Origin: Microbacterium hydrocarbonoxydans
Lineage (GTDB): Bacteria > Actinomycetota > Actinomycetes > Actinomycetales > Microbacteriaceae
Assembly: GCF_904831005.1 (NCBI RefSeq)
Contig: NZ_LR882982.1
Location: 868,001 to 932,000 of the forward strand
Direction: 5' to 3'
Length of the DNA stretch: 64,000 bases
Shown here: positions 28,410-55,357 of the stretch, piece after piece
Position numbering within the stretch: position 1 is the stretch's first letter
Layout of the letters: the number at the start of each line of letters is the position of its first letter
Notes under the pieces: model-generated
Told to the model about the DNA's origin: nothing
Seen by the model: only the letters and a program-made list of their open reading frames with translations
Database searches by the model: none
Translations under genes and position numbers: made by a program

Positions 28410-29936
28410 TCAGTTGTGCACCGAGACTTCCATCCCGATCGGCGACCAGTCGTAGACGAACTTCGCGACATCGATCGGCATGTTGATGCAGCCGTGGCTG
28501 CGCGGATTGCCGAAGTCGTTGTGCCAGTAGGTGCCGTGGAAACCCTCGTCGCCGTTGAAGTACGTGACCCAGGGCACGTTGGGCGTCTCGGTGATCGACC
28601 CGTCGGGCTCACGACTCTTCATGTTCTGCGACCGCAGGTGGGCGTACACCGTGAAGTTGCCGACATCGGTGGGCGTGGCCGCCTTGCCGGAGGAGATCGA
28701 CCACGAGCGCACGACGTTGCCGTTCTCGATGAGGGTCGCTGTCTGCGAACCGAGGTCGACGTCGATGCGACGCTCCAGGTTCACCGACTCGAACGGGGTC
28801 TCCGCGACCTGGATCGGGAAGACGCCGTTGCCGCTCTCGAGGTTCGCGGCGGCTTCGGCGGCCAGGTTGGAAGTGTCTCCCACCGCCCGCCCGGTGACGC
28901 CCTCGGTCTCGACGCGCAGGATCTCGCCCGAGGAGTTCACGATGTTCGTCGCGTTCACCGGCGCGCGGTCGACGACTCCTGCGAGACCGTCGACCGTCGC
29001 CTGGATCGCCGCAGGATCGGCGGCGATGCGCAGCTCGCCGTCGTCGTCGACGACGCTGACCCACGTCGACACCGTCGCCGGGTCGACGGGCACCGTGCGC
29101 TCCTCGCCGATGTAGAAACCGACGGAGCCGAGCATCTCATTCATCGACGCCGCGAGTGCGGTCGCATCCTCGTCGCTCACCGCGGGTGCGGCCTCTGCGG
29201 GCCCCGCGGGGAACTCCAGGCTCTTCCCGCCCTCGGCGACCGCGTCGGCGATCGCTGCGGTGAGAGCATCCACGTCGACGGCTGTGCCGGCCGCGGAGGG
29301 GGTGATCGTGAAGGCGCCTGCGGCGCCGTCGTAGACGACTCCGGCGTCGACCGGCTCCTCGAAGCTCGACGGCACGGCGTCGCGAAGAGTCGCGTCCGCA
29401 GTGGCGGCGTCGAGGGTGATGTCGCCGGGTACGGGATCTCCCGACCATGCTCCGATGTTCCAGAGCGGGCGCTCTGCGAACGCCTCGTCGGCCAGAGCGG
29501 TGGCGTCGATGCTCGCTCCGAGCTCGGCCCCGCTGAGCACGACGTCGCCGTCGGCGCCGGTCAGTGTGATCTCGGTGGTTTCGACGTGCTCGTTGATGGC
29601 ATCGGCGGCAGCGCCCGGGGTCATCCAGCCCACGGGAATGCCCGCGACCGTCGTACCGGGGGCGATCAGGATCATCGATGCGGCGCCCGCGCCGAGCGCG
29701 ACGACGCCGACCCCGAGGCCGATCCACAGTCCGAGACGCTTCTTCTTCGGTGCGGGTTCGATCGGCGCCCAGGCGACCGGGGCGTCCCCGTCGCCGGGGG
29801 GAAGCGAGTCGGTCGGCGCGTCCGCGCCGCCGCTCGGTGGCGTGGCGGAATCAGGACCTGCGCCGGAGGTCGGTACCTCATTCAGCTTCGCGGTCTTCGC
29901 ATCGTCAGCTGAGATCAGATCGGTCACGAACTTCAC
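28410..29936 (-). CDS. L,D-transpeptidase (YkuD) with peptidoglycan-binding domains
   Basis: The 508-residue protein is a type II membrane protein. It has a Pro/Ser-rich cytoplasmic N-terminus, a helix at about residues 69-92, two repeats resembling the PG_binding_4 (YoaR-type) domain (about 95-370), and a C-terminal YkuD catalytic domain with FHGTYWHNDFGNPRSHGCIN, including the catalytic Cys in SHGC. It forms 3-3 cross-links in peptidoglycan outside the membrane. The start is a GTG at 29936 with a poor ribosome site; TATACA (29957-29962, minus strand) is a possible -10. Confidence 0.93.
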   Translation of the reverse strand: MKFVTDLISADDAKTAKLNEVPTSGAGPDSATPPSGGADAPTDSLPPGDGDAPVAWAPIEPAPKKKRLGLWIGLGVGVVALGAGAASMILIAPGTTVAGIPVGWMTPGAAADAINEHVETTEITLTGADGDVVLSGAELGASIDATALADEAFAERPLWNIGAWSGDPVPGDITLDAATADATLRDAVPSSFEEPVDAGVVYDGAAGAFTITPSAAGTAVDVDALTAAIADAVAEGGKSLEFPAGPAEAAPAVSDEDATALAASMNEMLGSVGFYIGEERTVPVDPATVSTWVSVVDDDGELRIAADPAAIQATVDGLAGVVDRAPVNATNIVNSSGEILRVETEGVTGRAVGDTSNLAAEAAANLESGNGVFPIQVAETPFESVNLERRIDVDLGSQTATLIENGNVVRSWSISSGKAATPTDVGNFTVYAHLRSQNMKSREPDGSITETPNVPWVTYFNGDEGFHGTYWHNDFGNPRSHGCINMPIDVAKFVYDWSPIGMEVSVHN

Positions 29937-30035: not shown

Positions 30036-30443
30036 TCAGTCCGAGATGACTGCGAGTCCGTCGATCTCGACGAGCATCTCTTCGCGGGGGAGTCCCGTGA
30101 AGACCGTCGTGCGCGAGGGGAGGACGTCGCTCGTGGTGTGCGCGGTCACGAACTCGCCGTACGCCTCGTTCATGATCGGGAAGTCCTCGCGCTTGGTGAG
30201 GTAGACCCGCAGCATCACGACGTCGTCGAAGGTGGCACCGGATGCTTCGACGATCGCCTTGACGTTCTCGAGGGTGCGAGTCGTCTGTGCGGCGACGTCG
30301 CCCGGGAAAAGGTATTCGTTGGTCTGGGGGTCGACGGGGCCCTGGCCGGAGACCTGGACGATCGGTCCCTTGCGCACTCCCTGCGAGAACGTGTGTGCGG
30401 GTGCGGGGGCGGCGGTGGTCGAAACGCGGGTCTTCGCAGTCAT
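30036..30443 (-). CDS. RidA family imine deaminase
   Basis: This 135-residue YjgF/YER057c/UK114 protein has the family core (GPIVQVSGQGPVDPQTNEYL, ENVKAIVEASGATFDDVVML) and the catalytic Arg in LPSRTTVFTGLP. RidA proteins hydrolyse reactive enamine/imine intermediates released by PLP-dependent dehydratases. It is divergent from a D-serine-dehydratase-like PLP enzyme only 25 bases away, which would produce such intermediates. TAGGCT (30450-30455, minus strand) lies exactly six bases from the ATG, so it is probably leaderless. Confidence 0.92.
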   Translation of the reverse strand: MTAKTRVSTTAAPAPAHTFSQGVRKGPIVQVSGQGPVDPQTNEYLFPGDVAAQTTRTLENVKAIVEASGATFDDVVMLRVYLTKREDFPIMNEAYGEFVTAHTTSDVLPSRTTVFTGLPREEMLVEIDGLAVISD

Positions 30444-30468: not shown

Positions 30469-31689
30469 ATGCCTCTACAAATTCCGGATCCCACGCTCGG
30501 CCCCTGGGCGAAGGGCTTCTCGGCGAGAGCCGCCGGCCTGCGGCTCTCCGAGGTCGAGGGCGCGGGGCTGCATCTGTCGGACATGTCGACGCCGGTGCTC
30601 ACCGTGCACGAGGCCGCTCTCGCGCACAACGAGAAGACGGTCTTCTCATGGGCCGCCGAGTGCGGCGTGCTGCTCGCCCCGCACGGCAAGACGACCATGG
30701 CACCCGCGCTGTGGCAGCGGCTGCTCGACGCGGGAGCGTGGGGAATCTCGGTAGCCACGCCCTGGCAGGCAGAGGTGGCGGTCGACGCCGGGGTCGACAC
30801 CGTCCTGATCGCGAACGGACTCACCGACACGCGCGCAGCTCGCGGGCTCGGCACACTGCTCGCCGCCGACGAGGATCTTCGGATCCTGTGCTGGGCCGAC
30901 TCGGTCGTCGCAGTGCATCTGCTGGCAGACGCGGGCATCGACGCCGGCCGCCCCCTCGACGTGCTCGTCGAACTGGGCGGCGTGGGCGGACGGACCGGCG
31001 CGCGCACGGTCGAGGAAGGGGAGCGGATCGCGCAGGCCATCCGCGCGACGCCCGGCCTCCGCCTCGCGGGCGTCACAGGATATGAGGGCCCGTTCGGTCC
31101 CGATCGTACCGCGGCCTCGGTCACCGCCGTCGACGAGTACCTGGCGACACTCGTCGACCTGCACTCGCGCCTCGACTTCCCCGACGGCATCCGCCCGGTG
31201 GTGAGCGCGGGCGGGAGCTCCTTTCCCGATCGCGCCGCGGCCGTGCTGGCGCCCTTGGGTGCGGGGGACGTCGACGTGGTGCTGCGTTCGGGAGCATTCC
31301 AGATCCACGACGACGGATTCTATTCACGCATGTCGCCGTTCGGAGACATCACGGGCACCGAGCCCCTCCGTTCGGCGATGCATGCCTGGGCGCGCGTGGT
31401 CTCGCAGCCGGAGCCGGGTCTGGCGCTGCTCGATGCGGGCCGCCGCGACGTGCCCTTCGACCTCGATCTGCCGGTGCCGCAGTCGGTGGCGGGCGAGATC
31501 ACGGCGCTCAACGACCAGCACGCGTTCCTGCAGCTCGCGGACGGCGCGGAGGTGCATCCCGGAGACGTGGTCCGGCTGGGACTGTCGCACCCGTGCACGG
31601 CTTTCGACAAGTGGCGGGTGGTCGCTGTCATCGATGATCCGGATGCGGCGGATCCCCGGGTGATCGGAGCCGTGGCCACATGCTTCTGA
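30469..31689 (+). CDS. PLP-dependent amino acid deaminase / D-serine dehydratase-like (alanine racemase fold)
   Basis: The 406-residue protein belongs to the fold-type III PLP enzymes related to D-threonine aldolase and eukaryotic-type D-serine dehydratase. The PLP Lys lies in LAPHGKTTMAP, the phosphate-binding SAGGSSFPD follows at about 245, and the C-terminal HPCTAFDKW supplies the His and Cys that bind zinc in this family. It probably deaminates or dehydrates a D-hydroxy amino acid. RidA is divergent, and a D-aminoacylase fusion overlaps its end by ten bases, supporting D-amino acid catabolism. The substrate is not determined. Confidence 0.85.
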   Translation: MPLQIPDPTLGPWAKGFSARAAGLRLSEVEGAGLHLSDMSTPVLTVHEAALAHNEKTVFSWAAECGVLLAPHGKTTMAPALWQRLLDAGAWGISVATPWQAEVAVDAGVDTVLIANGLTDTRAARGLGTLLAADEDLRILCWADSVVAVHLLADAGIDAGRPLDVLVELGGVGGRTGARTVEEGERIAQAIRATPGLRLAGVTGYEGPFGPDRTAASVTAVDEYLATLVDLHSRLDFPDGIRPVVSAGGSSFPDRAAAVLAPLGAGDVDVVLRSGAFQIHDDGFYSRMSPFGDITGTEPLRSAMHAWARVVSQPEPGLALLDAGRRDVPFDLDLPVPQSVAGEITALNDQHAFLQLADGAEVHPGDVVRLGLSHPCTAFDKWRVVAVIDDPDAADPRVIGAVATCF

Positions 31690-34600
31690 GCACAGAGAAG
31701 TCGGTGCGGGTGTATCGCCGGGCGACGGTCATCGACGGCACGGGGGCCGAGCGTTTCGAGGCTGACGTGGCGGTCGAGGGCGAGCGTATCGTCGCCATGA
31801 TCACCGGGGGCGATGCGACCGAGTTGGCCCTTCCTGCGACGGCGGTCGAGGTCGACGCGGCCGGCATGGTGCTCGCCCCGGGATTCATCGACATGCATGC
31901 CCACAGCGACCTCGCGGTGCTGCGGGGAGCTGCGCACGACGCGAAGATCCGACAGGGGGTCACGACCGAGGTGCTCGGCCAGGACGGTCTCGGGTACGCA
32001 CCGCTCGACGACGCCGCAGCCTCTGTGATCCCGTCGCAGATCGCCGGATGGAACGGGACGCCGGAGGAGGTCCCGTGGCGCACGATGGATGACCTGCTGA
32101 CAGCGGTCGACGCCGCGACCGTCGCGAACGCGGCGATGCTGGTGCCGCAGGGGAACCTGCGCATGATGGTCGTCGGCCACGAGAATCGCGTGGCGACCGA
32201 CACCGAGCTCGCTGCGATGTCGGCGCTCCTCGGCGAGGCGATGGACGCGGGCGCCTTCGGCATGTCGAGCGGACTCACCTACACGCCGGGGATGTACGCG
32301 GACACGGCCGAGCTCGAGGCTCTGTGTCGAGTCGTGGCCGAGCGCGGGGGCTACTGGGCGCCCCATACGCGCAGCTATGGTGGCGCGGCCCTCGACGCGT
32401 ATCGTGAGGCGCTCGACATCGGGCGGCGCACGGGATGCCCGGTTCACCTCACCCATGCCACCATGAACTTCGCTCCGAACCGCGGGCGCGCGGCGGAGTT
32501 CCTCGCGCTGGTGGACCAGGCGCTCGCCGCCGGTGTCGACGTGACTCTCGACACGTACCCGTATCTGCCCGGAGCGACCACGCTGTCGGCGCTCCTGCCG
32601 AGCCGGCTCTCGCAGAGCGGCGATCTGCTCGGCACCATCGCCGAACTCGATGCGGCTCAGCGCGAGGCGGTGCGCGTCGAACTCGAAGAGGTCGGATGCG
32701 ACGGCTTCCACGGTGAGCCGGCCGACTGGACGACCATCCAGATCGCCGGGACCGGCGACCCTGCACTCGGCGATCTCGTTGGTCGGACGGTGGCAGAGAT
32801 CGCCGACTCGACAGGACGTCGTGCCGTCGACGTCGTGCTCGACACGATCGTCGCCGACTCGGGAGCCACGAGCATCCTGATGCACATCGGCGACGAGCAG
32901 AACGTGCGCACCATCATGCGCCATCCGCGGCACAGCGGTGGGAGCGACGGAATACTGATCGGCGGTCGTCCGCACCCTCGCGGGCGGGGCACCTTCCCGA
33001 GATATCTCGGCACCTACGCGCGAGACCTCGGCGTCCTCACCCTCGAGGAGGCGGTGCGGCACCTCTCGGGCACTCCGGCCGCCCGGCTCGGGCTCGATCG
33101 CGCAGACGCGCCCCGCGGAGTCATCCGGGTCGGGGCGACCGCCGATCTCGTGCTCTTCGACCCGGCCATCGTCGCGGCAGGTGCCACGTTCGACGATCCC
33201 CACGGAGCACCGACCGGGATCGCCGAAGTCCTCGTCGGAGGTGTTCCCGTCGTGATCGATGGAGAGGTCACGGGCGCCACCCCGGGGCGTGCGCTGAGGA
33301 TGCCGCCTGTGCCGCATCGGGCGACGGTGCCCCTCATCGAGTCGACGATCGATCCGTCTGCCGAACCGTTCATATGGCTCGACGACACACCGGTCATCTC
33401 GCCGGTGGCGCTCTCCGCGTCTGCAGCGCGCCTTCGGGGCCGGATGCCGGAGTCCGACGGGGCTTCTCCGATCAGACTCTCGGTCGACCCGTCGATCGGT
33501 CGCGAGGCGTTCGCCAGAGACCGCGTCGCCGATGAGGCGTTCCGTGTCACGGTGACGCACGAGGGCATCGATCTCGTGGGGGCGACGCCTCAGGGTGTGT
33601 TCCGCGCGGCATCGGTGCTGCGCCAGTTCCGCACCCCCGGCGGCACGCGTCATCTCATCCCTGCCGGCGTGTGGCAGGGCGCCCCCGCGTTCGGCTGGCG
33701 AGGGGTGATGCTCGATGTGGCGAGGCACTTCCGCCCTGCAGATGACGTGCGTCGCCTCATCGACCTGATGGCCGACCACCACCTCAGCGTGCTGCACCTG
33801 CATCTGACCGACGATCAGGGCTGGCGCTTCGGCGTGCCCGGGTATCCGCGGTTGACGCAGATCGGTGCCCGCCGCGAGGCGACCCAGCGCGGGCATGGTC
33901 CTCTCGCGACCGTCGAGCCGGGAGTGCATGAGGGGCATTACACGGATGCTGAGATCCGTGATCTCGTCGGCTACGCCGCCGAACGATTCGTGACACTCGT
34001 GCCCGAGGTCGAGCTGCCCGGTCACATCCAGGCGGCGCTGGCGGCGTATCCCCAGCTGGGGAACGTCGACGCGGGAGCGCCGATCACGGCTCCGTGGGAG
34101 CGGTTCGGGGTGAACCCTCGCACGCTGGCCCCCACGGACGCCGCTCTGGAGTTCGGGAAGGCGGCGATCGACGCGCTCTGCGACCTCTTCGACTCGCCGT
34201 GGATCGGCATCGGCGGCGACGAGGTGCCCGTCACCGAGTGGCAGCACAGCGCGGCTGCACGGGCGCGGATGCGCGAACTCGGTCTTCAGACGCCGCACGA
34301 CGTGCAACCGTGGTTCACCGCGCGCTTCGTCGAGCATGTGCGCTCCCGGGGGCGCACGGCACTCGCGTGGGACGAGGTGCTGGAAGGCGAAGTCCCCGCG
34401 GGGGTGAGCATCCTCGCCTGGCGCGGTCCTGTCGCGATGCGCGAGGCGCTGAGCCGCGGCATCCCGGTCATCGCGTGTCCCGACCTGCAGGTCTATCTCG
34501 ACTACCCGCAGTCCGATTCTGTGGAGGAGCCGATCAGGGTCGGTCCTCCGCTGTCGCTGGAGACGACGTACGGACTGCAGGTCGATCATCGAGCGCTGGG

Positions 34601-34934
34601 CGCGCAGGCGAATGTCTGGACGGAGCACCTGCCCACTCGGGACCGTGTGGACTTCGCTCTGTTCCCGCGGCTGTCGGCGATCGCCGAGCGGCTGTGGGAC
34701 GGGGGAGCACCTCGCGATTTCGGTGGGTTCGCGCGCCGGATCCCGGTGCATCTGAGGCGACTCGCCGAGGCGGGGGTGCGGTATCGTCCCCTGAGCGGGC
34801 CATTGCCCGAGCAGCGTCGTCCCGGCGTGCCGGGGAAGCCCCTCACGCGGGCCGCTCGGGAAGAGATCGTCGAGGGTCTCGTGGCGGGACTTCGGAAGAG
34901 GTCCGCGTCGAGGCCGACGCCGTCTTCGCAGTGA
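31680..34934 (+). CDS. fusion: N-acyl-D-amino-acid deacylase + GH20 beta-N-acetylhexosaminidase
   Basis: One uninterrupted 1084-codon frame joins two enzymes. Residues 1-540 are a D-aminoacylase-type amidohydrolase: the metal site His73/His75 in GFIDMHAHSD, HLTHATMNF, ILMHIGDEQNVRTIMRHP, and the catalytic Asp423 in GGSDG. Residues 541-1084 are a GH20 with GWRGVMLDVARHF, LHLHLTDDQGWR and the catalytic pair Asp847-Glu848 in GIGGDEVP. Neither half lacks catalytic residues. There is no signal peptide, so it is cytoplasmic. The junction (GRALR|MPPVP) looks like the end of one gene joined to the start codon of another. It could release GlcNAc and D-amino acids from the same material. A sequencing frameshift must be excluded. 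Confidence 0.88.
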   Translation: MLLSTEKSVRVYRRATVIDGTGAERFEADVAVEGERIVAMITGGDATELALPATAVEVDAAGMVLAPGFIDMHAHSDLAVLRGAAHDAKIRQGVTTEVLGQDGLGYAPLDDAAASVIPSQIAGWNGTPEEVPWRTMDDLLTAVDAATVANAAMLVPQGNLRMMVVGHENRVATDTELAAMSALLGEAMDAGAFGMSSGLTYTPGMYADTAELEALCRVVAERGGYWAPHTRSYGGAALDAYREALDIGRRTGCPVHLTHATMNFAPNRGRAAEFLALVDQALAAGVDVTLDTYPYLPGATTLSALLPSRLSQSGDLLGTIAELDAAQREAVRVELEEVGCDGFHGEPADWTTIQIAGTGDPALGDLVGRTVAEIADSTGRRAVDVVLDTIVADSGATSILMHIGDEQNVRTIMRHPRHSGGSDGILIGGRPHPRGRGTFPRYLGTYARDLGVLTLEEAVRHLSGTPAARLGLDRADAPRGVIRVGATADLVLFDPAIVAAGATFDDPHGAPTGIAEVLVGGVPVVIDGEVTGATPGRALRMPPVPHRATVPLIESTIDPSAEPFIWLDDTPVISPVALSASAARLRGRMPESDGASPIRLSVDPSIGREAFARDRVADEAFRVTVTHEGIDLVGATPQGVFRAASVLRQFRTPGGTRHLIPAGVWQGAPAFGWRGVMLDVARHFRPADDVRRLIDLMADHHLSVLHLHLTDDQGWRFGVPGYPRLTQIGARREATQRGHGPLATVEPGVHEGHYTDAEIRDLVGYAAERFVTLVPEVELPGHIQAALAAYPQLGNVDAGAPITAPWERFGVNPRTLAPTDAALEFGKAAIDALCDLFDSPWIGIGGDEVPVTEWQHSAAARARMRELGLQTPHDVQPWFTARFVEHVRSRGRTALAWDEVLEGEVPAGVSILAWRGPVAMREALSRGIPVIACPDLQVYLDYPQSDSVEEPIRVGPPLSLETTYGLQVDHRALGAQANVWTEHLPTRDRVDFALFPRLSAIAERLWDGGAPRDFGGFARRIPVHLRRLAEAGVRYRPLSGPLPEQRRPGVPGKPLTRAAREEIVEGLVAGLRKRSASRPTPSSQ

Positions 34935-35013: not shown

Positions 35014-36201
35014 ATGTCCGTATCGGATGAACAGCGCCCAACGACGCCGCCGGAGTATGCCGGTGCGAGTGCTCACGCATTCGGCCCCGGTCGCCACCTG
35101 CGCTCGCGCTCCAAGGTGCTTCCGGAGCACGCGCGAGGACACAACAGGGCCCTCGTCCTGCAGACCCTGTACCACTCGGGCGCGATGAGTCGAGCGGACC
35201 TCTCGCGGGAGACCGGGTTGACCCGAGTGACGATCTCGGACCTCGTCGCGGAGTTCATCGCAGACGGCATCGTCGTCGAGATCGGCATCCGCGAGACCGT
35301 CGGGCCCGGCAAGCCGCCCATTCTCATAGACATCGACCGCGTCGGCCACCAGATCATCGGCATCGACCTGTCGGGCCCCCATGCCTTCGTCGGCGCCGTG
35401 CTCAGTCTCGACGGCGACGTGCTCGAGCGGCGCGAGGTGCCGCGACCCGAGAGCGCCGACGGCGAAGCGGCCTTCGCGGCGACTCTGTCGCTGGCGCGCA
35501 CCCTCGTCGCCACAGCGACACAGCCCATCCTCGGCGTCGGCATCGGCACCCCCGGCGTCGTGCGTCCCGATGGGGTCGTGCTGAGCTCACCGAACCTCGG
35601 CTGGGTCAACCTCCCGCTCGAGGCGAAGCTGGGCGTCGATCTCGACCTTCCGGTCCTGGTGCGCAACGACGCGAACGCAGCAGTGCTCGCCGAGTACACC
35701 TTCGGCGAGGCGAAGGCCGATTTCATGCTCATCCGCATCGGTCGCGGCGTGGGCGCAGGGCTCATCACGGGAAGCCAGCCGTTGCTCGGCAGCCGCTTCG
35801 CCGCGGGCGAGATCGGACACGTCGTCGTCGGCACCGATGGAGGACCTCGGTGCGCCTGCGGCAAGGACGGCTGCCTCGAGGCCTGGCTCAGCGAGACGCG
35901 TCTGCGCCCCGCGATCGAGGCGACGCCCGAGTCCCGCGAGGAGATCCTTCGCGATGCCGGCACTCGCATGGCTGTCGCCATCGCCCCGATCGTGGCCGCG
36001 CTCGACCTGTCCGAGGTCGTGCTGTCAGGACCCGCGGATCTGCTCGACGGCGTGCTGATCGATGCGGCGGTCGACACTCTGCACGCACGCACGCTGGAGG
36101 GCGTCTTCGAGGACGCGCTCATCCGTCGCACCTCGCAGGCCGACATCGTGCTGCGAGGCACCGCGGTGATGGTGCTCTCGGGTCAGCTGGGCGTCTCGTG
36201 A
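35014..36201 (+). CDS. ROK-family transcriptional repressor (NagC-like)
   Basis: The 395-residue protein has an N-terminal winged helix (about residues 42-95, NRALVLQTLYHSGAMSRADL, ETGLTRVTISDLV) and a ROK sugar-kinase-like domain with GVGIGTPGVV and the zinc motif GHVVVGTDGGPRCACGKDGCLE. NagC and Mlc are the model members. Placed between a GH20-containing enzyme and a ROK kinase plus nagB, it is the likely GlcNAc-responsive regulator of this cluster. The operator overlaps its own promoter. Confidence 0.92.
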   Translation: MSVSDEQRPTTPPEYAGASAHAFGPGRHLRSRSKVLPEHARGHNRALVLQTLYHSGAMSRADLSRETGLTRVTISDLVAEFIADGIVVEIGIRETVGPGKPPILIDIDRVGHQIIGIDLSGPHAFVGAVLSLDGDVLERREVPRPESADGEAAFAATLSLARTLVATATQPILGVGIGTPGVVRPDGVVLSSPNLGWVNLPLEAKLGVDLDLPVLVRNDANAAVLAEYTFGEAKADFMLIRIGRGVGAGLITGSQPLLGSRFAAGEIGHVVVGTDGGPRCACGKDGCLEAWLSETRLRPAIEATPESREEILRDAGTRMAVAIAPIVAALDLSEVVLSGPADLLDGVLIDAAVDTLHARTLEGVFEDALIRRTSQADIVLRGTAVMVLSGQLGVS

Positions 36202-36241: not shown

Positions 36242-37207
36242 ATGACGCGCGCCTCCGTCGCCGACCTCGATGGTCGGCTCGTTTCCGTGGGCCTCGATGT
36301 CGGGGGCACAAAGATCGATGCCGTCGCGGTCGCGCCCGACGGCGAGATCATCGCCCGGCTGCGCCGCCCCACCGGATGGGGCGATGACGCCGTCGTGTCG
36401 AGCATCGTCGACGTCGTGGGGGCGCTCGCAGCCGAAGGCGGATTCGCCCCGTCGAGCGTCGGCACGGTCGGAGTGGGGATTCCCGGGGTCGTCGACTCCG
36501 ATACAGGGCGTGTGCTGCATGCAGTGAATCTCGGTGTCGAGTCGCTCGATCTCGCCGAGCGCGTCTCGGCGCGGCTCTCGGTGCCCGTGCGCATCGAGAA
36601 CGACGTGAAGGCGGCAGCGCTCGGTGCAGCCGTGCTGCGGGGCATCAGCGGGTCCATGGCGTATCTGAACCTCGGGACCGGAGTGGCCGCGGGAATCGTG
36701 ATCGACGGCGAGATCTGGCGCGGATCCCGCGGAACCGCAGGCGAGGTCGGGCATCTCTCGGTCGACCCCAACGGGCGCCTCTGCGGGTGCGGTCAGCGTG
36801 GCTGCATCGAGACGTTCTGCGGTGGTGGTGCGCTGACTCGCGCGTGGAACCGTCCGGGCGCGCTGCCCGTGCGCGACATCCTCGATGCCGCGGAATCCGG
36901 GGATGAGCGCGCTGTCGCACTGCGCGCCGATCTCTTCCACGGCGCAGCAGCGGCCGTGCGGGCGCTGGTGCTGTCGGCCGACGTCGAGCGCGTCATCATC
37001 GGCGGCGGATTGACCGCTCTGGGCGATCGGCTCCACGACGGAATCCGCGACTCTCTTCGTGAGGGTGCTGCGGCTTCGGCCTTCATGCGCTCACTGCACC
37101 TCGATGAACGCATCGAGCTGCTTCCCGCAGGTTCCCCCGCTGCCGCGCTCGGCGCCGCCGTCGTGGGCACCACCACCCCTTCTAAGGAGACCGTGTCCCA
37201 TGGCTGA
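36242..37207 (+). CDS. ROK-family sugar kinase, probable N-acetylglucosamine kinase
   Basis: The 321-residue protein has the ATP-binding GLDVGGTKIDAVAV, the catalytic Asp in RIENDVKAAALGAA, LNLGTGVAAGIVIDG, and the ROK zinc signature GEVGHLSVDPNGRLCGCGQRGCIE. It should phosphorylate a hexose or amino sugar. The eight-base overlap with nagB and the upstream GH20 and NagC-like genes favour GlcNAc or glucosamine over glucose; this is inference. Confidence 0.9.
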   Translation: MTRASVADLDGRLVSVGLDVGGTKIDAVAVAPDGEIIARLRRPTGWGDDAVVSSIVDVVGALAAEGGFAPSSVGTVGVGIPGVVDSDTGRVLHAVNLGVESLDLAERVSARLSVPVRIENDVKAAALGAAVLRGISGSMAYLNLGTGVAAGIVIDGEIWRGSRGTAGEVGHLSVDPNGRLCGCGQRGCIETFCGGGALTRAWNRPGALPVRDILDAAESGDERAVALRADLFHGAAAAVRALVLSADVERVIIGGGLTALGDRLHDGIRDSLREGAAASAFMRSLHLDERIELLPAGSPAAALGAAVVGTTTPSKETVSHG

Positions 37208-37979
37208 AGTCGTCATCGTCGAGAACGCTCAGAAAGCAGGCGATCTGGTCGCCGCCGAGATCGTCGCGCTCATCGACCGCCGCGCCGACGCCGTGCTGGG
37301 CCTCGCGACGGGATCGACGCCGCTCCCGGTATACCAGTCACTGCGCGCGCGTCTCGCCGGTCGCGACGTCTCTCAGGTGCGCGGGTTCGCACTCGACGAG
37401 TATGTCGGCCTCGACCCGGCGCATCCCGAAAGCTATCGCTCGGTCATCACCCGTGAGGTCGTCGAGCCTCTCGGGTTCGACCCGCGGCGCATCCATGTGC
37501 CCAACGGCAGGGTCGAGACGATCCAGCGTGCCGGAGATGACTACGAGTCCGCGATCGAGGCGGCAGGTGGAGTCGACCTTCAGATCCTCGGCATCGGCAC
37601 CGACGGTCACATCGGGTTCAACGAGCCCGGCTCGTCGTTCGCCTCCCGCACTCGCGTGAAGACGCTGACGGTGCAGACGCGTGAGGACAACGCGCGCTTC
37701 TTCGACTCGATCGACGACGTGCCCCGGCACTGCATCACGCAGGGACTCGGAACGATCCTGCGGGCTCGTCACCTGGTGCTGCTGGCGTTCGGAGAGGGGA
37801 AGGCCCGCGCCGTCGCAGAGGCTGTGGAGGGTCCTTTGTCGGCGATCCTCCCGGGCTCCGCGATCCAGCTGCACCCGCACGCGACCGTCGTGCTCGATGA
37901 GGCCGCCGCGTCGCAGCTGAAGCTCTCCGACTACTACCGCTACACCTTCGCGAACAAGCCGGCCTGGCAGGGGCTCTGA
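37200..37979 (+). CDS. nagB: glucosamine-6-phosphate deaminase
   Basis: NagB (259 residues) converts glucosamine-6-phosphate to fructose-6-phosphate and ammonia. Seen are GLATGSTPLPVYQSL, ALDEYVGL with the proton-shuttling Asp, GIGTDGHIGFNEPGSSF and HCITQGLGTIL. The ATG at 37200 lies inside the end of the kinase gene, with AAGGAG 11-12 bases ahead, so synthesis is coupled. It completes the kinase/deaminase steps; nagA lies 5 kb away. Confidence 0.96.
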   Translation: MAEVVIVENAQKAGDLVAAEIVALIDRRADAVLGLATGSTPLPVYQSLRARLAGRDVSQVRGFALDEYVGLDPAHPESYRSVITREVVEPLGFDPRRIHVPNGRVETIQRAGDDYESAIEAAGGVDLQILGIGTDGHIGFNEPGSSFASRTRVKTLTVQTREDNARFFDSIDDVPRHCITQGLGTILRARHLVLLAFGEGKARAVAEAVEGPLSAILPGSAIQLHPHATVVLDEAAASQLKLSDYYRYTFANKPAWQGL

Positions 37980-37995
37980 GCGACAGACCGCTCAG
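37976..37995. terminator. short hairpin across convergent stops
   Basis: CTGAGCG (37976-37982) pairs with CGCTCAG (37989-37995) over a 6-base loop. It overlaps the stops of nagB and the NUDIX gene, so it may act as a weak bidirectional terminator. Confidence 0.4.
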
Positions 37996-38399
37996 ACAGT
38001 TCTGGCGGGCCAGGCCAGCGGCAGAAGGTGCTCGACGCTGAGCGGCGCGAGCGGCAGCGTCTCGGCCTCGGCGGGGGTGATCCACCGGAGCTCGGCGAGC
38101 TCGGCCTGCGCGACGGGTTCCGCCGCGCCGATCGTCACGACGAAGGCGTCGGCGACCACCCGATGTCCGGGTTCATTCGCGGCGTCGGACACGAAGGTGC
38201 CGAGAGGTTCGAGGTCGGCAGGGCCGAGTTCGAGGCCCAGCTCCTCGCGCAGCTCTCGGGTGAGGGTCTCGGCCGGTGTCTCGCCGGGCTCCGGCTTGCC
38301 GCCGGGTTGCATGAATCGGGTCGTGCCCTCTTTGCGCACCACGAGCACCCGCCGATCCGCATCGAGGATGATCGCCGCACTGACTCGGATGTCAGGCAT
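37992..38399 (-). CDS. NUDIX hydrolase
   Basis: This 135-residue protein has a complete Nudix box (GKPEPGETPAETLTRELREE then LGL) at about residues 34-56, preceded by FMQPGG. It hydrolyses a nucleoside diphosphate-linked substrate such as an oxidised nucleotide; the specificity is not evident. Its start overlaps the stop of the FAD-linked oxidase by eight bases, making it the last gene of a three-gene unit. Confidence 0.92.
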   Translation of the reverse strand: MPDIRVSAAIILDADRRVLVVRKEGTTRFMQPGGKPEPGETPAETLTRELREELGLELGPADLEPLGTFVSDAANEPGHRVVADAFVVTIGAAEPVAQAELAELRWITPAEAETLPLAPLSVEHLLPLAWPARTV

Positions 38400-39756
38400 C
38401 GGGAGCGAAGACTTTTCCGGGGTTCAGGATGCCGAGCGGATCGAACACCCGTGTGATCTGTCGCTGCAGCTCCCACTGATCAGTGCCGATCTCGTCGGCC
38501 AACCAGCGGCTCTTGAGCGTGCCGATCCCGTGCTCGCCGGTGAGTGTGCCACCGAGAGCGATCGCGGCCCGGAAGAGCTCGTCGGCCGCCGCCCAGATGA
38601 CCGCCGGAGGCTCCTCGCCCTCGAAGATGAAGTTCGGATGCAGATTCCCGTCGCCGGCATGCGCGACGGTCGGGATCGTGATCGAGAACTCCTTCTCGAT
38701 CCGTGCGATCTCGTCGAACATCGCCGGCATGGCGCTGCGGGGCACGGACACGTCTTCGATCAGAGTCGTTCCCAGTTTCTGCATCGCCGGGTGCATGGAG
38801 CGGCGGATCGCGAGCATGCGCTCGCCCTCGGCGCGATCATGGGACACCTGGGTGACGCCGTGGTGCGCCGTCAGGATCGCTGCGATCTGCGCGGCCTCGG
38901 CGATCGCGGCGGGCCCGTCGGTCTGGATCGTCAGCTGTGCGCTGCTCGACGCAGGAGCGGGCAGTTCGAGAAGCGTCGCCACGGCCGCCAGGCTTGCGGC
39001 ATCCATGAGCTCCATGATCGCCGGCTGGGTGCCCGACGCGGTGACGGCCGATGAGGCGGCCGCAGCGGAGCGCACGTCGGGGAAGGTCGCCGTCACCGTG
39101 CAGGTGGTTCCTTCGACGAGTCGACGAAGTTTGAGCGTCGCCGAAACGACGACGCCCAGCGTACCCTCCGAGCCGATCACCAGGGAGGTCAGGTCGAGCC
39201 CTGTGACGCCCTTGACGCTGCGGTGCCCGACGTGCAGAAGCCGCCCGTCCGCGAGCACGAGGTCGAGCCCGAGCACAGCGTCGCGAACAACGCCGTACTT
39301 CGCGCAGAGGAGTCCTCCGGCGCCGGTGGCGATGTTGCCGCCGACCGTCGAGATGTCGCGGCTCGCGGGATCAGGGGCCCACCACAGGCCGTGCTCGGCC
39401 AGCACGGTGTTGAGGTCGGCGTTGATGATCCCCGGTTCGACGACGGCCAGCAGGTCGTCGGCCCGGATCTCATGGATAGCCGTCATCCGGAGCATCGAGA
39501 GCACGATCTCGCCTGCCCCGCCGTTCGCTGCGCCGGCGAGACCGGTGCCGGCGCCTCGGACCACCACCGGGGTCGTCGTCTGCGTCGCGATGCGCATCAC
39601 GGCCTGTACGTCTTCGACGGACTCCGCATGCACGATCGCGAGAGGGCGACCGGGGGCGGCGTGCCCGGATCGGTCGGCCCGGGCGATCTCGAGAGCCTCG
39701 GGGTCGGTCTCGACGCGATCTCCGATGGCGGAGCGGAGCAGATCGAGCGCGCTCAT
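38392..39756 (-). CDS. FAD-linked oxidase, GlcD/D-lactate dehydrogenase type
   Basis: The 454-residue flavoprotein has a PCMH FAD-binding domain (about residues 35-215: PVVVRGAGTGLAGAANGG, STVGGNIATGAGG) and a C-terminal FAD-oxidase domain with HAGDGNLHPNF and GGTLTGEHGIGTLK. Such enzymes oxidise D-2-hydroxy acids such as glycolate or D-lactate. The ATG at 39756 overlaps the stop of the upstream membrane-protein gene (ATGA). If MurNAc-type sugars were consumed nearby, D-lactate oxidation would fit, but this is speculative. Confidence 0.92.
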   Translation of the reverse strand: MSALDLLRSAIGDRVETDPEALEIARADRSGHAAPGRPLAIVHAESVEDVQAVMRIATQTTTPVVVRGAGTGLAGAANGGAGEIVLSMLRMTAIHEIRADDLLAVVEPGIINADLNTVLAEHGLWWAPDPASRDISTVGGNIATGAGGLLCAKYGVVRDAVLGLDLVLADGRLLHVGHRSVKGVTGLDLTSLVIGSEGTLGVVVSATLKLRRLVEGTTCTVTATFPDVRSAAAASSAVTASGTQPAIMELMDAASLAAVATLLELPAPASSSAQLTIQTDGPAAIAEAAQIAAILTAHHGVTQVSHDRAEGERMLAIRRSMHPAMQKLGTTLIEDVSVPRSAMPAMFDEIARIEKEFSITIPTVAHAGDGNLHPNFIFEGEEPPAVIWAAADELFRAAIALGGTLTGEHGIGTLKSRWLADEIGTDQWELQRQITRVFDPLGILNPGKVFAPDA

Positions 39757-40124
39757 GCGATGCGGCTGCGTCCGCTGACGACGCCGGCGCCGACGGCCAC
39801 CACGGCGAACGCGATGCCGATGAGCGGCTGGTCCATGAGCCACCAGGCGATCGTCACGCCCACGTAGATGAGGAGTTCGACGACGGCTCGCAGGAACGGG
39901 TGCAGGCGCAGCACCGGGCGGGGCGAGAGGAAGAGCGCCCACACGAGGATCGTGACGACGGGAGCGCCGATTCCGAGGATCACGTTCCACGGCAGCGGCC
40001 AGGTGGCGAACCCCCACAGTGCGAGTGTGCCGACGGCGATCACCAGGACGATCGAGCGGACGATGTCGAGGGCAGTGAAAGAGGGCCGGTCGACACCGGG
40101 AACGGAAGCAGGATCCTGGCTCAT
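39753..40124 (-). CDS. YrdB/DUF2568 family membrane protein
   Basis: The 123-residue protein has four predicted helices and the DUF2568 pattern (WNVILGIGAPVVTILVWALF). The function is unknown. TAGACT (40131-40136, minus strand) lies exactly six bases before the ATG, so the three-gene unit (YrdB, FAD-oxidase, NUDIX) probably starts leaderless here. Confidence 0.85.
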   Translation of the reverse strand: MSQDPASVPGVDRPSFTALDIVRSIVLVIAVGTLALWGFATWPLPWNVILGIGAPVVTILVWALFLSPRPVLRLHPFLRAVVELLIYVGVTIAWWLMDQPLIGIAFAVVAVGAGVVSGRSRIA

Positions 40125-42854: not shown

Positions 42855-44021
42855 CTAGGCCCGACCGCCCACCCATGTGCGCACGACGCGCAGGTCTGCA
42901 TCCCACAGCACGGCATCGCCCAGGTGCCCGACGGTGAGGCGGCCCAGTCGTCCGCCGAAGCCGATCGCACGCGCAGGCGTCTCCGTCGCCGCGCGCAGTG
43001 CAGCGGCCAGGGGGACTCCGGCCGCGACAGTGCGTCGCACCGCCTCGTCCTGCGTGAGCGTCGAGCCCGCGATCGAGCCGGTATCGTTCGTGCGCGCCAC
43101 GCCGCCGCGCACCGTCACCCGCACGGCGCCCAGGTCGTAGTCGCCGTCGGCGCTTCCTGCGGCAGCCATCGCGTCGGTGATCAGGGCGACCCGTGCGGGG
43201 GCGGCATCGAAGAGCAGCCTGACCACATGCGGGTCGAGATGCACGTCGTCGGCGATCGCCTCGAGTACGACCCGGTGATCTGCCGCGGCGGCGAGTACCG
43301 GGCCGGGGGCGCGGTGATGGATGCCAGGCATCGCGTTGAACGCGTGCGTGAGGATCGATGCGCCGGCGTCGAAGGCGGCGAGAGCGATCGAGGCGTCCGC
43401 GTCGGTGTGACCGACAGCGGCCGCTGCCCCGGATGCGACGATCAGCCTGATCGCATCGAGCCCGCCCGGCAGCTCGGGGGCTATCGTCACCTGCCGGACC
43501 GTGCCGCGGCCGGCCTCGAGCAGTCGCGACACATCGTCGGCTGCCGGATGGCGCAGCAGGTGAGGTGCATGCGCTCCGTGGTGCCCCGGGTCGAGGAAGG
43601 GACCCTCGAGGTGCGAGCCGAGGATGTCGGCGTCGGTCGCCGTGAGGTCGGCGATCTGTGCGACCCGGTGCTCGAGCTCATCGAGCGTGGCCGTCACGAG
43701 AGACACGACCGCGCGTGTGGTCCCGTGCGCGCGATGCAGTGCTCTGGCGGCCCGGATGGCATCCGGTCCGTCGTCGAAGGACGCTCCGGCACCGCCATGT
43801 CCGTGGATGTCGATGAGGCCGGGGGAGAGGACGGCGCCTTCGCCCGCAGTCGCCACGGCATCGACCACCTCGTCGGCGTCGGGCCATGTGTCGCCGATGC
43901 CCCGATCCACGACCATGCCGTTCGCTATCCGCACCCAGGCGTCGGTCTGGATCTCGCCGCCGTCGATGAGTGTGGCCGAGTGGACGACGATCGACGTGCG
44001 CGGGGTCGAGGAGGCGCTCAT
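42855..44021 (-). CDS. nagA: N-acetylglucosamine-6-phosphate deacetylase
   Basis: NagA (388 residues) removes acetate from GlcNAc-6-P before NagB. The metal and catalytic motifs are LIDIHGHGGAGASFDDG, GSHLEGPFLDPGHHGAHAP (Glu and His), VGHTDADAS, THAFNAMPGIHHR and LITDAMAAAG (catalytic Asp). The ATG at 44021 overlaps the GH20 stop (ATGA); an in-frame ATG at 44033 would add four residues. It forms a two-gene operon with the GH20 and is separate from nagB. Confidence 0.95.
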   Translation of the reverse strand: MSASSTPRTSIVVHSATLIDGGEIQTDAWVRIANGMVVDRGIGDTWPDADEVVDAVATAGEGAVLSPGLIDIHGHGGAGASFDDGPDAIRAARALHRAHGTTRAVVSLVTATLDELEHRVAQIADLTATDADILGSHLEGPFLDPGHHGAHAPHLLRHPAADDVSRLLEAGRGTVRQVTIAPELPGGLDAIRLIVASGAAAAVGHTDADASIALAAFDAGASILTHAFNAMPGIHHRAPGPVLAAAADHRVVLEAIADDVHLDPHVVRLLFDAAPARVALITDAMAAAGSADGDYDLGAVRVTVRGGVARTNDTGSIAGSTLTQDEAVRRTVAAGVPLAAALRAATETPARAIGFGGRLGRLTVGHLGDAVLWDADLRVVRTWVGGRA

Positions 44022-45532
44022 CGATCGGTCCATGGGATCTCCTCGGAGCGGTGGAAGTCGATGTCGGCAGTCTCCCAGAGCGGGGCGAGCGTCGCGAGTC
44101 GTGTGCGGAATGACTCCCAGGTGCGCTCCGGAGATGTCCGAGGAGACCAGGCGATCTCGGCCTGGGCGGCCGCGCGCGGGAAGACGAGCTGCTCGACGTC
44201 GCCGATCGTGCGGGTCGTCTCGCTCCACAGAGGAGCCTCGATCCCGAGGATCGCCGAGTCGGGCACGTCGAGCACCTCGGTCGGCTCCCACTCGTACGCG
44301 GTTCGTATATCGACGACGCCGGCCCAGGTGAGTCCGATCGGGAAGTCGGTCGAGTACTTCATGTCGAGATAGGCGACGTCTGCCGCAGACATGATCAGCG
44401 CACCGCCGCGTTCGACGAAGTGCGCCGCCTCTTCGGCGTGCGTGCCTTCAGGCGTGGTCTTCCCCCAGTACTGACCGATCGTGCCCTCGGCAATCTCCGC
44501 CGCTGCGCCGACCTCGTGCCACGCCACGGGGATCTTCCCCGCCTCGACGACGATCGCCGTCGCGCGCTCGACGAAGACGTCGAAATCGGCCTGCGGGGTG
44601 CCGAGCGACTCGTCGCCCCCGATGTGGATATAGGGCCCCGGCGTCAGCTCGGCGAGCTCGCGCACCACGTCGCGCACGAACTCGTAGGTGCGCTCTTCGT
44701 GGATGCGGACGCTCGAGTGACCGACACCCCAGCCGACGTATGGCTCGCCCTTGACGGGCAGCGGCTGCTCCAACCGGGCGGACTCGGCGACCAGCCCGTC
44801 GTTGAGAACGGGGCTCTCGACGAGTTCGGGGTAGGCGACCCCGATCGCGTGGGTGTGGCCCGGCAGGTCGATCTCGGGGATCACGATCATATGGCGGGCC
44901 GCCGCATACTCGACGATCGCGCGGTACTGCTGCTTCGAGTAGAACCCGCCGCGGTCTCCTCCCGCGGCCGTCAGCGACGCCAGCTCGGTGAGCTTCGGCC
45001 AGGAGTCGATCTGGATGCGCCATCCCTGGTCGTCGCTGAGATGAAGGTGGAGGTGGTTGAACTTGAGGGCGCTGGTGGCGTCGATGAACTTCTCGACCTC
45101 GGCGACGCTGAAGAAGTGACGCGTGACGTCGAGCATGACGCCACGGCGGGCGAAGCGAGGGGCGTCGGAGATCTGCGCATGAGTGATACCCCATCCGTCG
45201 TCACCTTCTCGCAGAAGCTGGAGCAGAGTCTGGATGCCGTAGAAGAGCCCCGCCTCGTCTGCGCCGACGATCTCGACCGAGGAGCCGACGGCGAGCGTGT
45301 ATCCCTCGCTCTCGGCGGCGTCGGGGTCGACGCGGAGCGAGATCGTGCCGTCTGAAGGCTCCGTCGAACGAGAGAGCCGGACGCCGGTGCGCCGGGAGAT
45401 CCCCTCGACCAGCTGCTCCACGGCAGGCGAGTCTCCGATGACTCGGACGGTTTCGGTGAGCGGCATCCGGCTGCCGCCGACAGTGGCGGAGAGCGGAAGG
45501 GGGACGAGGGGCATGGAATGGGGAAGGACCAT
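44018..45532 (-). CDS. beta-N-acetylhexosaminidase, GH20
   Basis: The 504-residue enzyme has an N-terminal GH20b-like domain (about residues 15-120) and a GH20 barrel with RGVMLDVTRHFFSV, LHLHLSDDQGWRIQ and the catalytic Asp-Glu in HIGGDESLG. No signal peptide is seen, so it is cytoplasmic, cutting imported GlcNAc oligosaccharides and feeding NagA. TAGGTT (45539-45544, minus strand) lies six bases before the ATG at 45532, which favours this start over a TTG two codons upstream. TTTTGTTC (45533-45540) resembles a ROK operator half-site. Confidence 0.93.
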   Translation of the reverse strand: MVLPHSMPLVPLPLSATVGGSRMPLTETVRVIGDSPAVEQLVEGISRRTGVRLSRSTEPSDGTISLRVDPDAAESEGYTLAVGSSVEIVGADEAGLFYGIQTLLQLLREGDDGWGITHAQISDAPRFARRGVMLDVTRHFFSVAEVEKFIDATSALKFNHLHLHLSDDQGWRIQIDSWPKLTELASLTAAGGDRGGFYSKQQYRAIVEYAAARHMIVIPEIDLPGHTHAIGVAYPELVESPVLNDGLVAESARLEQPLPVKGEPYVGWGVGHSSVRIHEERTYEFVRDVVRELAELTPGPYIHIGGDESLGTPQADFDVFVERATAIVVEAGKIPVAWHEVGAAAEIAEGTIGQYWGKTTPEGTHAEEAAHFVERGGALIMSAADVAYLDMKYSTDFPIGLTWAGVVDIRTAYEWEPTEVLDVPDSAILGIEAPLWSETTRTIGDVEQLVFPRAAAQAEIAWSPRTSPERTWESFRTRLATLAPLWETADIDFHRSEEIPWTDR

Positions 45533-45592
45533 GAACAAAACCTATCGTGCCGAGACGGGAGAGCACAGGGGCAGATCCGCTATGCTCATAAG

Positions 45593-51859: not shown

Positions 51860-51875
51860 GGTGTCGTCCTTCCGA

Positions 51876-53718: not shown

Positions 53719-53750
53719 GTGACCTCCTTGTCATGTCGCTGGTCCGATGA

Positions 53751-53804
53751 GAAATCGGTTTCACGAGCTCTCCGATTATTGACAGACCTCAGGTGGTCCG
53801 TCAA
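53751..53804 (-). promoter_or_regulatory. promoter and LacI operator of the permease operon
   Basis: On the minus strand TTGACG (53799-53804), 18 bases and AATAAT (53775-53780) form a promoter with a start near 53768. Just downstream, GAAATCGGTTTC (53751-53762, within GAGAAATCGGTTTCAC) is a LacI-type operator that would block elongation. Confidence 0.75.
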
Positions 53805-53864
53805 GTCGAATTTGGCCGGGAAATCGGGGAGAACTTGAATTCGTTGCCTGTGACGCGAAATTCA

Positions 53865-53914
53865 TTGACACGGAAACCCGTCGATGTTAGCTTCTTTCGA
53901 GAAATCGGTTTCTC
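53865..53914 (+). promoter_or_regulatory. promoter and LacI operator of the binding-protein operon
   Basis: TTGACA (53865-53870), 17 bases and TAGCTT (53888-53893) form a near-consensus promoter with a start near 53900. GAGAAATCGGTTTCTC (53899-53914), the most symmetric copy of the operator, sits on the start point. Confidence 0.8.
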
Positions 53915-53988
53915 CGGACTCGTCGTCCGGGGCGAACTGAATGCCCTGACATCCCGGCCGCCCGGCGGCCCCAACTGAAAGAGGCGCA

Positions 53989-55302: not shown

Positions 55303-55308
55303 AGAGTC

Positions 55309-55337
55309 GGCGGTGGGGCGCTGAGCGGCTCACCGCC
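55309..55337 (+). repeat. intercistronic hairpin after the binding-protein gene
   Basis: GGCGGTG (55309-55315) pairs with CACCGCC (55331-55337). It lies in the 55-base gap between the binding-protein and glycosidase genes, the same position as the hairpin at 22754-22786 in the other ABC operon. Confidence 0.55.
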
Positions 55338-55357
55338 CCTCTCCGGAGGAGAGCATC

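Follow-up and report, generated by a model that had tools for sequence, protein, structure and literature searches.

Microbacterium hydrocarbonoxydans carries a gene in which an N-acyl-D-amino-acid-deacylase-like amidohydrolase (DAA) is joined in one reading frame to a family 20 glycoside hydrolase (GH20), and this fusion is real, intact and old. The gene lies in a 64,000-nucleotide stretch of contig NZ_LR882982.1 (positions 868,001 to 932,000; hereafter the window, whose numbering is used throughout); the window's own genome is called G000, other G numbers denote relatives' genomes and L numbers denote loci. N-acetyl-D-glucosaminate (GlcNAc1A) is, in chemical terms, an N-acetyl-D-amino acid. 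From sequence and gene context, we propose, with a probability of roughly 0.65, that the gene product is a cytosolic bifunctional enzyme that splits GlcNAc-GlcNAc1A, in which N-acetylglucosamine (GlcNAc) is linked to this acid, and deacetylates GlcNAc1A.

An intact fusion gene in Microbacterium

The gene and its parts are as follows.

31680..34934, + strand: fusion gene DAA-GH20, 1084 aa (open reading frame, Pfam, relatives, alignment, structure model)
31680..33302, + strand: amidohydrolase half, residues 1-541, GQDG subfamily (Pfam, structure-database sequence matches, tree, alignment)
31896..31904, + strand: His73-Ala-His75, HxH motif (alignment)
31983..31985, + strand: Asp102, aligned with Zn-ligand Cys96 of the Alcaligenes D-aminoacylase (alignment)
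32364..32366, + strand: His229, aligned with Zn-ligand His220 (alignment)
32454..32456, + strand: His259, aligned with Zn-ligand His250 (alignment)
32946..32948, + strand: Asp423, aligned with catalytic Asp366 (alignment)
33303..34931, + strand: GH20 half, with domain 2 at about 561-657, the catalytic domain at 671-1007 and a C-terminal tail to 1084 (Pfam, sequence and structure matches)
34218..34223, + strand: Asp847-Glu848, GH20 catalytic pair (alignment)

The open reading frame begins with ATG, runs for 1084 codons without an internal stop and ends with TGA, and its start overlaps by 10 bases the upstream gene for a D-serine-dehydratase-like fold-type III pyridoxal phosphate (PLP) enzyme (DSD). 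Pfam assigns residues 57-525 to Amidohydro_3 (2.5e-25) and residues 671-1007 to the GH20 catalytic domain (1.8e-87, 294 bits against a cut-off of 22.3); GH20 domain 2, at residues 561-657, scores slightly below its cut-off (25.8 against 26.1 bits). The reading frame and Pfam thus bear out the initial annotation, which had described a complete DAA and a complete GH20 with no stop between them, and support its view that two families normally met as separate proteins are genuinely joined. The residues that it had singled out (His73/His75, Asp423 and Asp847-Glu848) are present, and all are invariant in 77/77 aligned fusion proteins, the Asp-Glu pair placing the second half in GH20. Among solved structures, this half matches 3rcn of Arthrobacter (3.7e-113); the Arthrobacter aurescens enzyme shares 37% identity and the whole GH20 fold with it but, unlike it, is unfused. 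An AlphaFold2 model built from 77 fusion sequences has a pTM of 0.84 and a mean pLDDT of 79, and a Foldseek search of the PDB with this predicted structure retrieves both amidohydrolase and GH20 structures. Several of its active-site loops have pLDDT values below 50, and we therefore draw no argument from geometry.

The two-domain architecture recurs widely in the genus, well above what chance would give. When scoring was limited to the 7995 candidates with the most shared words, 334 proteins matched at E<=1e-30; the 120 matches listed are 1058-1121 aa long, each has both Pfam domains and, where an organism is named among them, it is Microbacterium. In a first set of 58 relatives, the fusion was found in 10/35 same-genus genomes, G000 included (in one, G023, the match ends at residue 1003). 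A larger set of 295 same-genus genomes yielded matches at E<=1e-100 in 88; in 66 the match spans essentially the whole fusion, and 64 of these 66 are free of stops, one of the 64 (G554) having a match that begins at residue 157 and a locus with frame breaks. Because 64/66 near-full-length matches lack a stop, a sequencing error, which the initial annotation had allowed for, is excluded. Two loci with frame breaks throughout, L127 (G485) and L211 (G554), were handled as poor assemblies. Besides the 66, G291 has one further fusion divided between contigs C91 and C41, the assembly break falling almost exactly at the fusion junction. Among the best 80 of 97 loci in a scan of named genomes, all full-length fusions are from Microbacterium or from a record labelled 'Microbacteriaceae bacterium'.

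The 78 loci classed as full comprise 59 distinct DNA sequences, or 58 when L206 (the same contig as G423), which lacks the GH20, is excluded; L169 stops at a contig edge, and five genomes are represented twice (L002/L139, L204/L212, L117/L172, L065/L173 and L066/L202). The junction at Arg540-Met541 is as first described, resembling the end of one gene meeting the start codon of the next: the Met541 codon is ATG in at least 53/59 distinct loci. A five-letter Shine-Dalgarno-like motif in the 20 nucleotides 5' of this codon was found in 0/59, and an internal start at Met541 therefore lacks support.

The alternative that the fusion is recent, also raised initially, was rejected on its genus-wide occurrence and on phylogeny. 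The 19 DAA rows labelled as fused form one clade (support 100/100), nested among unfused DAAs; L206 carries this label in the tree even though its GH20 has since been lost. The fused GH20s likewise form one clade (100/99), which also contains the unfused GH20 of G459. The locus of the latter (L129) follows the gene order of the fusion locus (GH20, ROK, solute-binding protein, permease, kinase, NagB, NUDIX, FAD oxidase) and is devoid of RidA, DSD and amidohydrolase; this operon may show the GH20 side as it stood prior to the fusion, or what remained once the other half was lost. M. nymphoidis W2R (L204) and a metagenome-assembled genome (L165) make up the earliest fused branch, which keeps a solute-binding protein and ABC importer in the cluster.

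Gene neighbourhood and proposed pathway

Bacterial use of the oxidised ends made by lytic polysaccharide monooxygenases (LPMOs) is described, in the available text of two papers, for one pathway only, which is proteobacterial (PMC9537276, PMC12017989). In this ong pathway of Pseudoalteromonas prydzensis ACAM 620, the GH20 enzyme OngA splits GlcNAc-GlcNAc1A (PMC9537276), and the D-aminoacylase-like OngB deacetylates GlcNAc1A (PMC9537276, PMC12017989). The D-amino-acid-deaminase-like OngC, which also acts on D-Ser and D-Thr, makes 2-keto-3-deoxygluconate (KDG), KDG kinase (KdgK) acts after OngC, and the RidA protein OngD is required (PMC9537276). In the sections available, the same paper traces the whole pathway to Gammaproteobacteria and a single betaproteobacterium, and recognises an ong cluster where four or more homologues of P. 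prydzensis genes occur together at >30% identity. Beyond the two papers, the listings of an open-access library showed no report of the fusion or of GlcNAc1A use in Actinobacteria. If our reading is true, the pathway would extend to Actinobacteria, where the deacetylase would have a different active site and one enzyme would carry out the first two steps, and much of the genus may subsist on oxidised pieces of chitin that it cannot itself produce.

The other genes considered here are as follows.

30036..30443, - strand: RidA-family imine/enamine deaminase, OngD-like, divergent (Pfam/profile, relatives)
30469..31689, + strand: DSD, fold-type III PLP enzyme, D-serine deaminase-like, OngC-like (Pfam/profile, structure match)
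35014..36201, + strand: ROK-family repressor, NagC/Mlc-like (Pfam/profile)
36242..37207, + strand: ROK-family sugar kinase, probably an amino-sugar kinase (Pfam/profile)
37200..37979, + strand: NagB glucosamine-6-phosphate deaminase, with a predicted start (Pfam/profile)
42864..43946, - strand: NagA GlcNAc-6-phosphate deacetylase, match range, narrowly above the TIGR00221 cut-off (profile search)
44018..45538, - strand: second, unfused GH20 of a different subfamily, adjoining nagA (profile search, tree)

The cluster thus reads divergent RidA, DSD, fusion, ROK repressor, ROK kinase and NagB. Four enzyme kinds of the ong cluster (GH20, D-aminoacylase-like, D-amino-acid-deaminase-like and RidA) occur together in the window, which counts in favour of the proposed function; they do so by family, the sole identity figure being the 30% to OngB of P. 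prydzensis (PpOngB) from structural alignment. KdgK is present in the clusters of relatives, and the chemistry is probably the same. In the pathway that we propose, the intact disaccharide would be imported and the GH20 half would remove the non-reducing GlcNAc from GlcNAc-beta-1,4-GlcNAc1A, the C1-oxidised disaccharide from chitin-active LPMOs. The amidohydrolase half would strip the acetyl group from the remaining GlcNAc1A to give D-glucosaminate, so that the fusion would yield GlcNAc, acetate and glucosaminate. The upstream DSD would dehydrate and deaminate D-glucosaminate to KDG, with RidA clearing the enamine or imine, and KDG would pass through KDG kinase and 2-keto-3-deoxy-6-phosphogluconate (KDPG) aldolase to pyruvate and glyceraldehyde-3-phosphate. 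The released GlcNAc would be converted by a kinase, NagA and NagB to fructose-6-phosphate. We take the protein to be cytosolic because no signal peptide is visible at its N-terminus on inspection by eye only. Several features would set this system apart from ong: OngA is periplasmic and separate, whereas the Microbacterium GH20 and deacetylase are one protein; the ong regulator is MurR/RpiR, in contrast to ROK here or IclR in relatives; the ong importer is of the SSS type, whereas some Microbacterium relatives have an ABC importer; and G000 is without an AA10 LPMO, unlike the ong setting.

The substrate is suggested mainly by unfused DAAs of the GQDG subfamily, which are ~47-61% identical to the fused DAA. 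In the same genus, loci L115, L116, L117 and L118 combine RidA, IclR, KdgK, DSD, DAA and a KDPG-aldolase-like gene (Eda) with a convergent GH20, and L119 has the same six genes and no GH20. Elsewhere in the family, these six genes occur in L068, L069 and L070, and RidA, KdgK, DSD and DAA occur in L067, which is from a genome with an AA10 LPMO. The L070 aldolase exceeds the TIGR01182 cut-off (179 against 156 bits); models for KDG and 2-keto-3-deoxygalactonate (KDGal) kinases are the best match, below their cut-offs, for 4/4 kinases scanned (L067-L070), and the best matches of two IclR proteins are the KdgR and BhcR models, also below cut-off. In Arthrobacter sp. H5 (L184:5989-8610), a single 873-aa reading frame joins a GQDG DAA to a KDG/KDGal-kinase domain (NF040938 2e-53, below cut-off), next to a DgaE-family PLP lyase (TIGR01437 8e-55, below cut-off) that replaces DSD, with RidA, IclR and an Eda match nearby; related DgaE-like genes adjoin DAA in L180, L186 and L189. 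A gene of the DgaE (glucosaminate-6-phosphate lyase) family thus stands beside the Arthrobacter DAA, but in the Microbacterium cluster the acid would probably be deaminated unphosphorylated, by a different PLP fold. A deacylase, a dehydratase or lyase, KdgK and Eda in one locus therefore point to an N-acyl-2-amino-2-deoxy-aldonate as the substrate class. Because the DAA neighbours are DSD or a DgaE-type lyase, KdgK and Eda, deacylation followed by deamination most likely gives KDG, with GlcNAc1A as the substrate; with a GH20 joined to a GlcNAc1A deacetylase, GlcNAc-GlcNAc1A would then be the obvious substrate of the whole protein. Given the deacetylase-GH20 and deacetylase-KDG kinase fusions, a single compound would suffice to test this substrate. 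The initial annotation had suggested a substrate carrying an N-acetylhexosamine together with an N-acyl-D-amino acid, such as a cell-wall fragment; a substrate of this kind, with the hexosamine beta-linked, most likely applies, whereas a cell-wall fragment is not supported, though not refuted either, since KdgK, KDPG aldolase and the DgaE-family lyase beside unfused relatives point to GlcNAc1A and not to muropeptides.

The combination of GH20 with DAA, DSD and RidA is found separately on the trees in the fusion, in the convergent pairs L115-L118 (whose GH20s belong to a different clade from the fused ones), in the GNCG-type pairs L071-L073 and in L075, and this repeated pairing argues for a shared substrate. 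The GNCG-type pairs, which unite a GH20 and a distant, Cys-bearing GNCG deacylase with DSD and RidA, constitute a second group of ong-like loci, distinct from the others, to which L074 also belongs: its GH20 and deacylase are the same, and its stretch contains neither DSD nor RidA. Candidate open reading frames scanned in the GNCG-type pair loci included no KDG kinase or KDPG aldolase, being NAD-binding/epimerase, HAD, ROK, FAD-oxidase, MFS and DUF4349 proteins. These loci, from other Microbacteriaceae, carry ABC permeases, GH20, the Cys-type deacylase, a ROK repressor and a kinase, with NagB beside GH20 in L073 and L074. A non-actinobacterial record, L209 from a Dehalococcoidia metagenome-assembled genome, has tandem amidohydrolase matches (41% and 38%) with RidA and DSD-like matches.

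Natural losses are informative as well. In six same-genus genomes (G325, G384, G435, G438, G556 and G583; loci L080, L110, L111, L112, L113 and L114), which belong to at least two lineages on the tree, the GH20 is intact and is preceded by a truncated remnant of the DAA half. Approximately residues 272-454 are missing from G438, and more from the other five; in the open frames aligned from L080, L111 and L114, the HxH motif and the other metal positions are gone and the GH20 pair is kept. Within the fetched loci, DSD is absent from 6/6 and RidA from 5/6 of these, whereas beside intact fusions DSD is next door in 47/58 distinct loci and RidA in 58/58; the loss of DSD with the decay of DAA favours a common pathway. 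G325 has another DSD elsewhere, beside a 39% DAA, and G014, G021 and G022, with an intact fusion and no local DSD, each have a DSD paralogue elsewhere, within ~2 kb of KdgK and Eda. As each half has been lost alone, the two can do without each other, and obligatory channelling from one to the other is therefore less likely. The importer retained in the earliest fused branch also favours the proposed pathway, as does a run elsewhere in G000 (L123) of a mannonate dehydratase (over cut-off), a PF01081 KDPG aldolase and a KDG/KDGal-kinase-like PfkB side by side. The PF01081 aldolase is present in 10/10 fusion genomes and in 17/25 other same-genus genomes, a weak association (p=0.046).

Active site of the amidohydrolase half

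The active site was compared in an alignment of 77 of 121 fusion protein ids and, separately, in 47 GQDG-clade rows, fused and unfused. His73, His75, Asp102, His229, His259 and Asp423 are invariant in the 77 fusions, so that the HxH motif, the two metal-binding His and the catalytic Asp of subtype V are in place. In contrast, the subtype V Cys ligand of the beta metal is replaced by Asp in 77/77 fusions and 47/47 GQDG-clade rows, and of the carboxylate-binding Lys/Tyr/Ser/Arg set, Tyr293 and Arg434 are kept, with Thr261 in place of Lys and Ala299 in place of Ser. Across the 47 rows, the HxH motif, both metal-binding His and the Tyr are all kept, as are the catalytic Asp and the Arg except in L207, whose contig ends before both. 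Because of the metal-ligand change, the DAA half is, judged by its residues, outside both subtype V and the OngB family as these are defined. Asp102 is a candidate metal ligand, and the enzyme may work like OngB and the subtype V enzymes with a different first shell.

Sequence searches with the DAA half matched Alcaligenes faecalis D-aminoacylase (AfDam, 1m7j) best (7.8e-74), followed by the N-acyl-D-glutamate deacylase 3gip (2.9e-66) and PpOngB 9kb1 (1.2e-54). The enzymes 1m7j and 3gip have the same fold; the fused DAA differs from them in being without the subtype V Cys and Lys and in having Thr200 and Asn263 for AfDam Phe191 and Met254. The loss of these two residues of the AfDam hydrophobic pocket counts in favour of the proposed substrate; the Leu298 position of the pocket is unplaceable in the alignment. 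PpOngB (9kb1/9kb3, PMC12017989) resembles the predicted structure in fold (Foldseek 1.2e-31, TM-score 0.87 by target length), and the HxH motif, two His, the catalytic Asp and the carboxylate-binding Arg and Tyr are shared. PpOngB was outside the alignment, and its residues were placed through AfDam numbering. At the OngB specificity positions, Ser292 corresponds to Thr300, and the Gln298 position is unplaceable, AfDam being masked there. In the GQDG clade, relative to PpOngB, Lys is replaced by Thr or His and Glu226 by Tyr, and position 291 differs in most rows (Ala or Ser for Ser291); at position 292 the clade shares the Thr of D-aminoacylases (with one Ser, in L013), whereas OngB has Ser. 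We therefore describe the fusion as an enzyme that would work like OngA and OngB together, yet lies outside the OngB family as defined. We see about an even chance that Actinobacteria have their own oxidised-chitin pathway, with a new Asp-liganded amidohydrolase subtype separate from proteobacterial OngB, a GH20 fusion in Microbacterium, a KDG-kinase fusion in Arthrobacter, and carriers that mostly use oxidised ends made by others.

Weighing the proposed substrate

Several observations weigh against GlcNAc-GlcNAc1A as the substrate. With respect to the active site, the DAA half is closer to 1m7j than to PpOngB, to which it is 30% identical (Foldseek row), and Asp102, Thr261, Tyr233, Ala299 and Thr300 replace PpOngB Cys97, Lys254, Glu226, Ser291 and Ser292, most of which cut or abolished activity when mutated, according to the available text (PMC12017989); AfDam pocket residue Met346 corresponds to Ile403, which retains hydrophobicity. 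With respect to gene content, KdgK and Eda are absent from the window's cluster, and a close importer was not identified in G000, where only a 32% relative of the L165 binding protein was found. Among relatives, L120 has RidA and DSD only, L121 KdgK only, L064 and L065 RidA and DSD with no KdgK or Eda in the stretch, and L066 DSD alone; among 35 unfused loci from the scan of named genomes, many of them from Nocardiopsis and some with short stretches, the fetched sequence held RidA at 28 and DSD at 11, KdgK at only 16 and Eda at only 7. DSD is missing beside 11/58 distinct intact fusions, and G423 (L210, the same as L206) kept a DAA of the fused clade and lost the GH20, with the ROK repressor directly next to it and no DSD in the stretch. 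Finally, AA10 LPMOs were found in 0/35 same-genus genomes, G000 included, in a search that did not cover AA11 and AA15, and in 2/5 further ones (G291, with the fusion, and G325, with the decayed DAA half), giving only 2/40 overall. In a set of 299 genomes of the family, AA10 shows no enrichment alongside the GQDG DAA (1/23 against 9/276, p=0.56, the 23 being hand-picked at identity >=47%). AA10 did co-occur post hoc with any DAA relative at E<=1e-40 among the matches listed (8/10 LPMO genomes against 60/289 others, p=1.5e-4), which we give little weight because several DAA clades are mixed and only listed matches were counted, and with GH20-DAA pairs (2/9 against 8/290, p=0.03, post hoc). An AA10 LPMO as the genomic partner of the fusion was rejected, there being none in G000 and few in the genus; oxidised chitobiose would therefore come from other organisms.

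The DAA half could instead be an ordinary N-acyl-D-amino-acid deacylase, supplying D-Ser, D-Thr or the like to DSD, with a GH20 fused to it for tied expression only and without a shared substrate. The solved-structure match to 1m7j, the best match of the upstream PLP enzyme to D-serine deaminase 3gwq (3.6e-59), the loci with DSD and RidA and no KDG enzymes nearby (L064, L065 and L120) and the loss of each half alone would all suit this explanation. However, the KDG kinase and KDPG aldolase of many unfused loci, and the Arthrobacter DgaE-family lyase and DAA-KDG-kinase fusion, are inexplicable if the product is D-Ser or D-Thr, the GH20 pairing has arisen repeatedly and separately, and the subtype V Cys and carboxylate-binding Lys are missing, so we regard an ordinary deacylase as unlikely. 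Another N-acyl-2-amino-2-deoxy-aldonate (a galacto or manno epimer, or one with another acyl group) or its lactone might follow the same pathway logic: the kinase models cover KDG and KDGal alike, several pocket residues differ from PpOngB, and AA10 is rare in the genus. Set against this, the DgaE-family neighbour indicates the gluco form and chitin is an abundant source of oxidised ends (PMC9537276), and we see little prospect for such a variant.

Peptidoglycan recycling, in line with the cell-wall fragment suggested by the initial annotation, would have the GH20 trim GlcNAc from muropeptides and the amidohydrolase cut the N-acyl-D-amino acid bond. A gene for a YkuD L,D-transpeptidase (28410-29936) adjoins RidA and is retained there in 3/3 relatives read at that end (L061-L063), and there are amino-sugar genes in the cluster, but the transpeptidase position may be mere synteny, the KDG module does not suit this role, and a scan of many but not all genes around the fusion and around its relatives revealed no N-acetylmuramic acid etherase, amidase or peptidase; recycling thus appears very improbable. 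Direct deacetylation of GlcNAc or a GlcNAc oligosaccharide, bypassing NagA, is slightly more improbable still. The amidohydrolase is of the same superfamily as NagA and shares its cluster with GH20, a ROK kinase and NagB; nevertheless, nagA is over cut-off 8 kb downstream in the window and has a strong match in 10/10 fusion genomes of the first set (over cut-off in 8), and a bypass leaves DSD, RidA, KdgK and Eda unexplained. With nagA present, a replacement of NagA was rejected.

Beyond NagB, a NUDIX hydrolase and an FAD-linked oxidase (37992-39900) stay beside the cluster in the fusion loci read, and a 67% relative of this oxidase is also beside the amidohydrolase in Labedella (L066, L202). 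Further downstream (50495-57007), a GFO/IDH/MocA oxidoreductase, two ABC permeases, a solute-binding protein and a weak glucosylglycerate-hydrolase match probably make up another sugar locus.

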